Assembly: GCF_013403245.1 (NCBI RefSeq)
Contig: NZ_JACBNQ010000020.1
Span: 1-64,000 of the forward strand
From: Sedimentibacter hydroxybenzoicus DSM 7310
Lineage (GTDB): Bacteria > Bacillota > Clostridia > Tissierellales > Sedimentibacteraceae
Reading direction: 5' to 3'
Length of the DNA: 64,000 nt
Numbering within the stretch: the stretch's first letter is position 1; each line of letters begins with the position of its first letter. This document shows, piece after piece, positions 13,120-28,446 of this stretch. Made by a program: the position numbers and the translations under genes. The notes under the pieces were generated by a model. The model saw only the letters and a list, made by a program, of their open reading frames with translations. It searched no databases and was not told the origin of the DNA.

Positions 13120-13338
13120 TTAAAATATATCTCTATCGGTAGGTGCTTGATTATTTATAAGCATTTTTTCGCCCATTCGTACCATTTCTCTTACACTTAA
13201 TCCATTAACAACAGCAGGATACATTTCTGAAGTTGCATTTCTTAAAACAGGGACACCTAAATCCTGAGCTATTTCCATTTTTAAATTGTTAACAGCTTGT
13301 TGGGCTTCAGGAACTACTAATTTATTTCTGCTACTCAT
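13120..13338 (-). CDS. Small acid-soluble spore protein, alpha/beta type
   Basis: A 72-aa spore DNA-binding protein. The first conserved block is KLVVPEAQQAVNNLKMEIAQ and the germination-protease cleavage region is EIAQDLGV; the second helix is SVREMVRMGEKML. These proteins coat and protect DNA in the dormant spore and are degraded at germination, so the organism forms endospores. AAGGAGC precedes the ATG. Expression is expected from a forespore sigma-G promoter, though I could not identify one with confidence. Confidence 0.93.
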   Translation of the reverse strand: MSSRNKLVVPEAQQAVNNLKMEIAQDLGVPVLRNATSEMYPAVVNGLSVREMVRMGEKMLINNQAPTDRDIF

Positions 13339-13469
13339 TTTTACAGCTCCTTTATGATTATTTACCTACACAAGCTCCAATTTTTATATGAAGCTATAAG
13401 ATTATTATTAACTTTAAAAAATAATATAAACTGAAAAATATTTCAAAAAATAAAAATAAAATGAAAAAA

Positions 13470-13490
13470 ATGAGCAGAAAAACTGCCCAT
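13470..13490 (-). terminator. Terminator of the Cys-rich repeat gene
   Basis: On the minus strand ATGGGCAG and CTGCTCAT pair (one G-T) around a five-base loop, followed by seven Ts. It lies about 80 bases past the stop of the cysteine-rich gene, beyond a repeat C fragment. Confidence 0.65.
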
Positions 13491-13506
13491 TTCATATAGA
13501 TTCACT

Positions 13507-13572
13507 GTCATTCTGAGGGCTTTGCCCGAAGAATCTCATCTTTTGCTCTACGAGATATTTCGCTTTCGCTTA
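13507..13572 (-). repeat. Repeat C fragment, copy 1
   Basis: GTCATTCTGAGGGCTTTGCC and the GAAGAATCTCATCTTTTG that follows match, in reverse complement, the right half of the copy at 28305-28381. Repeats of the type TCATTCTGAGC..GAAGAATCTC are common intergenic elements in many bacteria. This one sits in the 3' untranslated region of the cysteine-rich gene. Confidence 0.7.
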
Positions 13573-13962
13573 CCTTGGGACTACGGTAGGTGTTCCCAGA
13601 CACCAATCGCACACATTCCAGCATCTGTTGCTTCCGCCTGTTCCTGCAACGTTATTACATCTGCTTCTTCCGCCGGTACCCGCAACGTTATTACATCTGT
13701 TGCTTCCACCTGTACCCGCAACGTTATTACATCTGTTACTTCCGCCGGTACCCATAACATTACCGCATCCGCAACCGCCGCCTGTTCCTGCAACTTCTCC
13801 ACAACAGCAGCAGCATCGTCTTCCGCCGGTTCCTGCTACGCCGTCACAAAGTCCTGTTCCTGATATGCATCCAGGTCCTCTTAAAGCTATTCTTTGAACT
13901 CCGAATGTACCCATTACTTGGCCGCAATCTCCGGATCTATTAATAAATCTATCACAACTCAT
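13570..13962 (-). CDS. Cysteine- and glycine-rich repeat protein, unknown function
   Basis: A 130-aa protein with 17 cysteines. After a short non-repetitive N-terminus (SCDRFINRSGDCGQVMGTFG) it carries a run of five cysteines (RRCCCCCGEVAGTGG) and then a tandem repeat of about 12 residues with consensus R-C-N-N-V-A-G-T-G-G-S-N. The DNA period is 36 bases. I favour this strand because ATG 13962 has a well-placed AAGGTG and the frame ends shortly before a terminator; the plus-strand frames in the same place have no ribosome site. It lies next to the SASP gene on the same strand, so a spore coat or metal-binding role is a reasonable guess but unproven. Confidence 0.7.
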   Translation of the reverse strand: MSCDRFINRSGDCGQVMGTFGVQRIALRGPGCISGTGLCDGVAGTGGRRCCCCCGEVAGTGGGCGCGNVMGTGGSNRCNNVAGTGGSNRCNNVAGTGGRSRCNNVAGTGGSNRCWNVCDWCLGTPTVVPR

Positions 13963-14211
13963 AATTAACACCTTTTTCTCTTAATATTTGAGTCAAGCTC
14001 AATATTATCATATTCGACAGCTTATAAAGTGTTACGACATACTTTTTAAATTTATTATTTATTATTTATTATGAAACAATGAACTTAAAAATTAATAAAT
14101 TGTTAATAATTAGTTTATAGTTATTCAAGAGTAATAATGTATTATATAAATATACAACTACATAAACGTTTATGATTTTATGTTGCCAAATTATATATTG
14201 GAGGCAGGAAA

Positions 14212-18322: not shown

Positions 18323-19006
18323 ATGAAAAGGATATTAATTATTGAAGATGATAAAAGCATATCGGAGCTGCAAAAGGATTATTTGGAAATGAGCGGCTAT
18401 GAGGTCGTTTGTGTTTTCGATGGTGATGCCGGTCTTGAGCATATAAAAACTGATAAATTTGATCTGGTTATTTTGGATTTGATGCTTCCTCAAAAGGGTG
18501 GATTTGATATATTAAAAGATATAGCCGATTCAAAACAAATACCCGTACTTATTGTGTCTGCGAAATCCGATGAAACGTATAAAATTAAAGGATTAAACTT
18601 AGGTGCTGATGATTACATAACTAAGCCTTTCAGCATGGGTGAATTGGTTGCAAGGGTAAACAGTCACCTGAAAACATATGAAAGATTTAACAGCAACTTA
18701 AAGAAAAAACTGATAAGAACAGGAGCGTTATCTATTGATAAAGAAGACCGCAGAGTTTTTATAGAAGATAATGAAATTCTTTTACCTCAAAAGGAATTTG
18801 ACTTACTTTTATTTTTAGCTGAAAACCCAAATAGAGTTTTTAGTAAGGAAGAGTTGTTTGAAAAAGTTTGGGGGTATGATGCTTTGTCAGATACAACAAC
18901 AATAACTGTACATATAGCAAGAATAAGAGAAAAGATTGAAACGAACTGCGAAGGACGTCAATATATTGAAACGGTATGGGGAACAGGATACAGATTTAAA
19001 ATTTAG
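18323..19006 (+). CDS. OmpR-family response regulator
   Basis: A 227-aa regulator. The receiver has the acidic pair EDD, the phospho-site aspartate in LVILDLMLP, and the switch residues in VSAKSD and ITKPFS. The winged-helix output domain ends in TVHIARIREKI and ETVWGTGYRF. ATG 18323 (KRILIIEDD) is preferred over an in-frame ATG at 18305 that lies in the kinase gene. It probably controls the adjacent transporter and perhaps the exported-protein gene at the head of the module. Confidence 0.94.
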   Translation: MKRILIIEDDKSISELQKDYLEMSGYEVVCVFDGDAGLEHIKTDKFDLVILDLMLPQKGGFDILKDIADSKQIPVLIVSAKSDETYKIKGLNLGADDYITKPFSMGELVARVNSHLKTYERFNSNLKKKLIRTGALSIDKEDRRVFIEDNEILLPQKEFDLLLFLAENPNRVFSKEELFEKVWGYDALSDTTTITVHIARIREKIETNCEGRQYIETVWGTGYRFKI

Positions 19007-19027
19007 TAATATATAGGTGGAAGTATT

Positions 19028-19426
19028 ATGGATATGGAAGTGTTTTTTAAAAGAGTATATACAGTTGCTTTTAGACTTACCGGGGATAAAGAGATTGCAG
19101 CAGAAATGGCTGCTCATGCAATCACACATACTGTTAATGAATTGGATGAAGATTATAAGATAACAGAGGATTTGCTTCAACTAACAATTATAGAACTGGT
19201 AAAAATATTCCTGAATGTACCGAAGTCACATCGCGATCATAATTTAAAAGGAATTCAAAAGGCTTTATTAGAACTTAAACCTATAAACAGAGCAGTACTA
19301 ATCTGGAAGGATGTGCTAGGGTATCGGATATATGATAACATACCTGTATCGGATTGCACTCATGAAGAATTATTTAAAGAACTTGTTCATGGGAGAAAAA
19401 TGCTTAAAGAATATATTAGCATGTAG
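19028..19426 (+). CDS. ECF-sigma-like protein, degenerate
   Basis: A 132-aa protein of no assigned name. The first 45 residues (VYTVAFRLTGDKEIAAEMA) resemble ECF sigma region 2, and residues about 75-130 (IQKALLELKPINRAVLIWKDVLGYRIYDN, then a GRKMLKEYI end) resemble region 4. The region 4 recognition helix looks eroded, and the protein is shorter than normal (usually 160-190 aa). It may be a sigma-like adaptor, an anti-regulator or a decaying sigma factor. It follows the response regulator by 21 bases with GGTGG upstream, so it belongs to the same module. Confidence 0.55.
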   Translation: MDMEVFFKRVYTVAFRLTGDKEIAAEMAAHAITHTVNELDEDYKITEDLLQLTIIELVKIFLNVPKSHRDHNLKGIQKALLELKPINRAVLIWKDVLGYRIYDNIPVSDCTHEELFKELVHGRKMLKEYISM

Positions 19427-19680: not shown

Positions 19681-19916
19681 TATTATACATTTACAAATTT
19701 ATAGGTGTCAATATTCGGATGAAAAGTTATATTATATATCGATTTTGTAGATATAATTTTACATTTTACATGGGAGGTATATTTAAAAGTACGATGGATA
19801 GGAAGCGTATAAGAAATATTTATAAAAACATATAATTTCATGGTAATTAGTGGTATAATATTATATATAAGTCAGTTGGTTCATTTGTAGAATTATTGGT
19901 TATGAGGTGATAAAAA

Positions 19917-20126
19917 TTGATAAAGCAAGCATTAAAAAGTGCTTTAGGCATAAGTTTAGGTGTAACAATAGGAATGGTAATGATTCCAAGAATTATGGAT
20001 CCAAATTTAAACAAAATATATCCACCCATTTTTGTGCAGGCTGTTGTGCAATTTGTTGCATCATATATTGTGGCTTTCTTAATTTTCTTGATATTAGACT
20101 ATTTTAAATTAAAAAAACAAAAGTAA
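19917..20126 (+). CDS. Small membrane protein
   Basis: A 69-aa protein with two predicted membrane helices (about 8-27 and 38-60) and a basic C-terminal tail (DYFKLKKQK). The start is TTG at 19917, eight bases after GAGGTG. An overlapping frame starting at 19907 has no such signal. I do not recognise a family. Confidence 0.6.
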   Translation: MIKQALKSALGISLGVTIGMVMIPRIMDPNLNKIYPPIFVQAVVQFVASYIVAFLIFLILDYFKLKKQK

Positions 20127-28304: not shown

Positions 28305-28381
28305 GTCATCCTGAGCGGCAGCGAAGGATCTCAGAACTTCAAAAGATGAGATTCTTCGGGCTAAAGACCTCTGAATGACAG
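28305..28381. repeat. Repeat C, copy 2 (both halves)
   Basis: GTCATCCTGAGC..GAAGGATCTCA on the left and TGAGATTCTTCGG..CTGAATGACAG on the right are inverted copies of one sequence, giving a long imperfect hairpin. The right half matches 13507-13572 in reverse. It is intergenic, between the amidohydrolase and typA. Confidence 0.75.
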
Positions 28382-28446
28382 TAACATACGATACGTTTCT
28401 TCATAGCAATGACAAATCCGAAAATACACTTTGCTATCAATTTTGG

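Follow-up and report, generated by a model that had tools for sequence, protein, structure and literature searches.

Family A, a Sedimentibacter-specific family of cysteine-rich repeat proteins sharing its leader with a second cysteine-rich family, as a candidate component of the outer spore layers

The window, i.e., the whole stretch of 64,000 nucleotides analysed here (positions 1 to 64,000 of contig NZ_JACBNQ010000020.1 of Sedimentibacter hydroxybenzoicus DSM 7310), contains a short cysteine-rich gene on its minus strand. We refer to this gene and its relatives as family A. The gene and its surroundings comprise the following features:

13120..13338, minus: neighbouring alpha/beta-type SASP gene with its own start region (PF00269, E 3e-10)
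13467..13493, minus: intrinsic terminator-like hairpin (terminator scan and folding)
13570..13962, minus: family A gene, 130 aa, ATG to TAA
13573..13593, minus: conserved C-terminal tail TPTVVPR, with P129 and R130 invariant in the 20-member alignment
13622..13753, minus: 36-bp tandem repeat, 3.7 copies, 87% matches (TRF)
13846..13890, minus: conserved head motif IALRGPGCISGTGLC, residues 25-39 (invariant or nearly invariant alignment columns)
13969..13974, minus: ribosome-binding site AAGGTG, with GGTG invariant in 35 leaders
13990..14000, minus: conserved short dyad GAG-CTTGA-CTC, immediately following the -10 box (leader alignment; start site inferred)
14006..14035, minus: promoter GTAAC-N15-GAATATGATA, or AC-N16-AATATGATA, with sigma-K-type geometry (leader alignment)

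The 130 residues translated from minus-strand 13570-13962 include 17 Cys, five of them in a CCCCC run, and GGSNRCNNVAGT-type 12-residue units (G-G-S-N-R-C-N-N-V-A-G-T). A first-pass annotation of this DNA had reported the same cysteine count, the five-Cys run and the tandem 12-residue units, and both the translation and TRF agree with it. The family A ORF, in a 133-aa version, had the top Cys fraction (0.128) of the 153 window ORFs of at least 60 aa; the mean Cys fraction across the 58 window ORFs of at least 150 aa was 0.012. GC3 of the frame was 0.336, against a window GC of 0.347, and GC2 was 0.68, values that fit a coding frame rich in Gly, Cys and Arg. The ribosome site and the terminator ascribed to the gene by the annotation were both located: the former is AAGGTG at 13974-13969, and the latter is a terminator-like hairpin at 13493-13467 (minus strand) that folds at -13.4 kcal/mol (z -5.2), the scan finding one hairpin in the stretch that holds it when 0.6 were expected by chance. 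A dispersed repeat at 13500-13571, which contains GAGATTCTTCGGGCAAAGCCCTCAGAATGACA (minus strand), starts right after the family A stop codon; it has 30 matches in the S. hydroxybenzoicus genome, this copy included, and a second copy in the window at 28314-28382. Two further Cys-rich window ORFs, at 18887-19180 (minus strand, 97 aa, 11.3% Cys) and 19907-20107 (plus strand, 66 aa, 12.1% Cys), may be chance frames.

Judged by its SASP-adjacent relatives, by dN/dS and by the finding that no other frame is open throughout the orthologs, minus-strand 13570-13962 is a real gene. The dN/dS ratio was 0.06-0.41 for the 13 of 190 family A pairs with >72% DNA identity, a rough range, as several dS values were >1. 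Third-position change was in excess for 12 of these 13 pairs, and the closest pair tied positions two and three with six changes each. Three of the five alternative frames (two sense, one antisense) contained stops in every one of 20 orthologs; the other two, both antisense, were stop-free in only three and two orthologs. Because of these stops, the plus-strand frames are regarded as artefacts of composition and repetition, in line with the earlier warning about extra open frames: they are present in the window and not conserved among the orthologs. Homologs were not confined to plus-strand frames, which upholds the minus-strand gene as first annotated.

Relatives of family A were recovered from a single genus. 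Matches at E <= 1 were found in 23 of the 61 genomes searched, all Sedimentibacter. Sixteen named family A loci came from the alignment query, including those of Sedimentibacter saalensis DSM 13558 and S. acidaminivorans DSM 24004; single-sequence scans of genome contigs and viral contigs yielded no family A relative. Of the 249 genomes in the order set, 22 matched the family A profile at E <= 0.01, all belonging to the genus, and there were no matches among the 224 order genomes outside it. One of these matches (G002, E 0.004) was to a protein of the second family described below, leaving family A detected by profile in 21 of 25 genus genomes. Searching with the leader added a diverged ortholog in G017, which has kept IALRGPGC and TPTTVPR and lost the remainder of the head motif, and a contig-cut copy of ten residues in G002, and thereby brought the count to 23 of 25. 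The two genus genomes without family A, G001 (88% complete) and G004 (62% complete), both carry SigK. None of the 390 other genomes of a class-wide sample (391 including S. hydroxybenzoicus, and overlapping the order set) gave a family A match.

The 20 complete members ranged from 95 to 209 aa in length. Invariant or nearly invariant columns run through the head motif, with the consensus I-A-L-R-G-P-G-C-I-[SDN]-G-T-G-[RLT]-C, and the proteins ended in VPR (16 of 20) or CPR (four of 20), the last two residues being invariant. The number of repeat units per member varied from three to nine by the unit pattern, which in some rows also counts the head motif. In the close relatives L021, L023 and L027, which are 89-94% identical where aligned, there were six, six and four units, meaning that copy number differs between close species. 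The total of Cys per member varied from 8 to 19, with two invariant Cys columns (C32 and C39 in window numbering) and one nearly invariant column (C114). By these comparisons, family A is a genus-specific family under purifying selection, with a fixed head and tail and a Cys-rich repeat region of variable length. The annotation had known of no named family with this pattern, and indeed none of the 20 members had a Pfam or NCBIfam match at E <= 0.01; a PDB profile search gave no match either. AlphaFold2 returned no fold for family A (pLDDT 37.6, pTM 0.11), and hence no assembly surface is visible.

The spore DNA-binding protein gene that had been noted next to family A is the alpha/beta-type SASP gene (PF00269). 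An ortholog of it adjoins family A in 21 of the 23 loci from the genus; the two loci without it are contig ends. The family A protein itself, unlike this neighbour, has no PF00269 match. An LCP/LytR gene was present in 19 of the 23 loci, and four flanking genes, presumably encoding a cobalamin adenosyltransferase, KsgA, RNase M5 and TatD, were common to most loci. The other flank was variable: an Asn synthase gene was found in six of 23 loci and a NuoF-like gene in eight, neither was seen in 12, and six loci span <2 kb there. No conserved coat gene was found beside family A in the 23 loci; SASP, which binds DNA in the spore core, does not count as one. The SASP start region has conserved blocks that differ from those of the family A leader. 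As family A has its own terminator-like hairpin and SASP a separate start region, the family A gene is probably monocistronic.

A second family, B, was found via weak matches of the family A profile. Its members carry N-N-V-A-G-x-x-G-R-R and, after it, a C-x-C-x-x-V-[FY]-E-C-L-x-E-L-L-E-D-A-L-like stretch that occurs one to three times. Family B or B-like genes, some of them cut by contig ends, were read in 20 of the 25 genus genomes. In G010, the gene immediately upstream of family A is B-like. The member in S. hydroxybenzoicus is located outside the window:

L149:7023-7385, contig C45: family B gene, 120 aa, same leader

No family B was found in the other 390 genomes of the class sample. Weak profile matches outside the genus but within the order (seven genomes, E 0.02-0.06) were not accepted; five of the seven had internal stops. 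A PDB profile search with family B gave no match, and AlphaFold2 (pLDDT 45.8) predicted three helices, of which two coincide with the ECLxELLEDAL repeats and the third is short. When the profiles of the two families were compared, 19 columns were matched with a probability of 75, covering only the shared repeat motif; common ancestry of families A and B is thus possible.

The two families are preceded by a leader with the consensus GTAACACTTT...GAATAnnATA...TAATGRGCTTGnCYCAAA...AAAAGGTGTTATT-ATG. We aligned 35 leaders, drawn from 34 of the 37 loci that were scanned; the selection pattern required an ATA-type -10, a CA-type -35 upstream, RRGCTTG and CY and left the spacing of -35 and -10 free. 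The arrangement AC-N16-nATAnnnT[AG] was present in all 35 aligned leaders and in 14 of 15 further leaders. At its first position the -10 has A in 33 of 35 leaders; the C expected for sigma-K is present in two. Within the window, the only match of GTnAC-N17-ATAnnATA was the family A promoter (0.17 expected); across the S. hydroxybenzoicus genome a promoter pattern had two matches, the same as its reversed control (one plus one). Searched with strict filters and with part of the candidates scored, a leader model matched 53 times at E <= 0.01 within the genus, in 23 of its 25 genomes; in 36 other genomes it gave two weak matches. Of the 53, 23 precede family A, 29 precede family B (26 read as sequence and three, in G006, known from adjoining profile matches alone) and one, the third match in the S. 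hydroxybenzoicus genome (C23, E 0.009), lies before an unrelated short ORF and was counted as chance.

In C. difficile, the promoters recognised by sigma-K and by sigma-E have a common -10 and are told apart by the -35 (AC with sigma-K, ATA with sigma-E); the cotJB2-cotD and cotF-cotCB operons are down in a sigK mutant, and cotJB2-cotD belongs to the sigma-K regulon (from the part of PMC3789822 consulted). SigK scored above its curated cut-off in 15 of the 17 genus genomes searched, S. hydroxybenzoicus included. From the geometry of the promoter, family A would be transcribed late in the mother cell by sigma-K RNA polymerase.

The cotJ loci of the genus provided a comparison. Upstream of CotJB, 11 of the 14 loci in the genus carried the pattern GTnAC-N15-nnATAnn[AGT]T[AG]. 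Shuffling gave an expectation of 0.12, a flattering figure because the pattern was written after inspecting those regions. Eight of the 11 promoters have the GAATA -10 of family A, and that of S. hydroxybenzoicus (GTAAC-N15-CCATATTATA) lies before a 78-aa ORF upstream of CotJB. Family B adjoins cotJ in three species: in G018 a B gene lies immediately before cotJA-cotJB and a Mn-catalase gene, another directly precedes the cotJ operon in G003 (CotJB and Mn-catalase by Pfam), and a B-like gene lies ~0.5 kb upstream of CotJB in G005. We take the Mn-catalase-family gene (PF05067) of this operon to be cotJC. The CotJA-CotJB-CotJC operon resembles families A and B in its promoter and is a neighbour of B, but the CotJ proteins differ from A and B and the cotJ promoters, inspected by eye, are without the A/B dyad. 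As read from these alignments, the promoter geometry is common to families A and B and the cotJ operon, and cotJ is without the rest of the leader. The link to spores made in the annotation gains from both the SASP neighbour (21 of 23 loci) and this geometry.

The three-pair dyad, with a loop of five to six bases starting with CTTG, was present in all 35 aligned leaders. Its arms were GAG/CTC in 26, GGG/CCC in five, AGG/CCT in three and GGG/CTC in one; it should be borne in mind that the RRGCTTG and CY elements of the selection pattern favour, and do not force, pairing. Of the 15 further leaders, 11 pair, L104 pairs only via two G-U, and L159, L161 and L158 are unpaired. The dyad is lost from the two B leaders that adjoin cotJ (G018 and G003). 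On a fixed alignment, we counted nine double-change cells compared to 3.2 when shuffled, and none of 500 shuffles was as high; two pairs had a double change, a number equalled in 152 of 500 shuffles. The double changes are limited to family B leaders, and all 21 family A leaders keep GAG/CTC; being so confined, the changes may amount to just three or four events. A stable RNA hairpin was not borne out by folding of five leaders (z -0.54 to +1.67): the stem was part of the minimum-energy structure in two of them (L024 and L085) and absent from three, including that of the window. Rfam gave only chance-level matches on the leader, below gathering scores. From its conservation across the aligned leaders, the dyad is a conserved element at or near the inferred transcription start.

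Taking these results together, we consider it likely that family A has a structural role in the outer layers of the spore, either coat or exosporium, and that it is produced late in the mother cell and cross-linked by disulfides. Late in the mother cell, sigma-K RNA polymerase would transcribe the gene. The protein, in which no export signal was seen by eye, would stay in the mother-cell cytoplasm and dock on the forming spore via its head and tail motifs. Every 12-13 residues, its disordered repeats would present one Cys or a few, and oxidation of these Cys would create intermolecular disulfides that harden the spore layer. Family B probably acts in the same layer, where its short helices (ECLxELLEDAL) could serve as assembly units. 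It is possible, though we find it rather doubtful, that the two families are invented, fast-evolving builders of the spore surface and that, with the sigma-K leader, the covarying CUU-loop dyad is a dedicated control element (a 5'-terminal RNA stem-loop or an operator) setting the timing or stability of coat mRNAs, with repeat expansion tuning the stiffness of the coat.

The annotation had offered either cross-linking in the spore coat or metal binding, and our results favour the former. A metal-binding sporulation protein, acting as a metallothionein-like store or scavenger for spore maturation, would account for the Cys-rich composition, for the CxCxC stretches that several members have close to their N-terminus and for a promoter geometry common to the cotJ operon, which has a Mn-catalase-family protein. 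Metal-cluster proteins usually keep their Cys spacing, however, and in family A neither the number nor the spacing of Cys is conserved (two invariant columns and one nearly so among 20 members, with a total of 8-19), which makes this role improbable. Since repeat number and Cys count vary and few Cys are invariant, fixed ends with an elastic, Cys-bearing middle fit better than a metal site. A vegetative or stationary-phase protein unrelated to the coat, transcribed from a sigma-A promoter, is suggested by the sigma-70-type reading of the promoter (GTAACA/TATGAT), which scores 9 of 12 in a scan that yields seven sites compared to 5.0 expected by chance. This is, in our view, quite improbable, given that the leader is almost wholly limited to two Cys-rich families, that its geometry is shared with cotJ and that two leaders, both from G010, have a perfect CATAnnnTA.

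The conserved head, the repeated units and the hypervariable Cys-rich middle would also suit a RiPP precursor with the head motif as leader and the repeats as cores, as would the Asn synthase gene upstream in some genomes. That gene is present in just six of 23 loci, though, both copies checked carry a complete glutaminase-domain match, and none lies within 50 kb upstream of the window family A gene; no modifying enzyme was recognised among the conserved adjacent flanks, which in most loci are SASP, LCP/LytR and the four genes named above. The C-terminus of family A is its conserved tail, and in RiPPs the core is usually at the C-terminus. We therefore give a RiPP precursor very little credence, and return to the structural role in the outer spore layers.

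Such a role has counterparts in other spore formers. CdeC and CdeM of the C. difficile exosporium are described in the consulted part of PMC6101409 as monocistronic, sigma-K-controlled, Cys-rich and repetitive, and they resemble family A in their high Cys content, short repeats and lack of a known domain. CdeM is limited to one species (same source), and families A and B to one genus in the genomes searched. Compared by description, the repeats differ (NPC, CCRQGKGK and CNCCNCCRK in CdeC/CdeM, N-N-V-A-G-T-G-G-S-N-R-C in family A), and a RIALRGPGCI-like motif, present in family A, is unmentioned for CdeC/CdeM in the excerpted account (PMC6101409). CsxA of Clostridium sporogenes is likewise a Cys-rich spore-surface protein, as proposed for family A, but it forms a hexagonal lattice and is often encoded near collagen-like repeat genes, whereas family A is low-complexity with no predicted fold, a separation made by description (excerpt of PMC7333573). 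Unrelated Cys-rich proteins have been proposed to build disulfide-linked layers in many spore formers (excerpt of PMC7333573), and the Bacillus proteins CotY, CotZ and ExsY are cross-linking Cys-rich proteins of the outer layers (excerpts of PMC6101409 and PMC7333573). Family A is set apart from the latter in that none of its 20 members matches any Pfam family at E <= 0.01. Pfam contains a CotY/CotZ model. With 8-19 Cys in 95-209 aa, short repeats and no known domain, family A has the sequence characteristics of the Cys-rich spore-surface class, and by a likeness drawn from descriptions it most likely works like CdeC/CdeM or CsxA.

The strings IALRGPGC, VAGTGGSNR, FECLLELLEDA and VYECLLELLEDA were absent from the literature searched, in which Sedimentibacter and the exosporium were not mentioned together and no paper had the Sedimentibacter spore surface in its title; a co-mention with the spore coat occurred in a review on insect larvae. 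Cys-rich spore-surface proteins are already known as a kind, and families A and B with their shared leader appear to be new. Sedimentibacter would represent an apparently independent case of Cys-rich spore-layer building, by two families with a common leader. The repeat-length variants in 20 genomes and a leader that predicts a regulon make the idea of convergence testable beyond Clostridium and Bacillus.

Some minor observations concern family B. In S. saalensis and a relative (L159:5449-7105 and L161:4810-6910), B lies directly upstream of cotJ, with the promoter kept and the dyad unpaired. A conserved ORF of 86-96 aa is divergent from B at these loci (L159:4824-5084 and L161:4142-4432); the L159 copy has no Pfam or NCBIfam match, and the ORF is possibly a further coat gene. 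Two IMG/VR contigs filed as viral (L165 and L166) encode family B relatives, and are perhaps misfiled chromosome pieces or prophage flanks.
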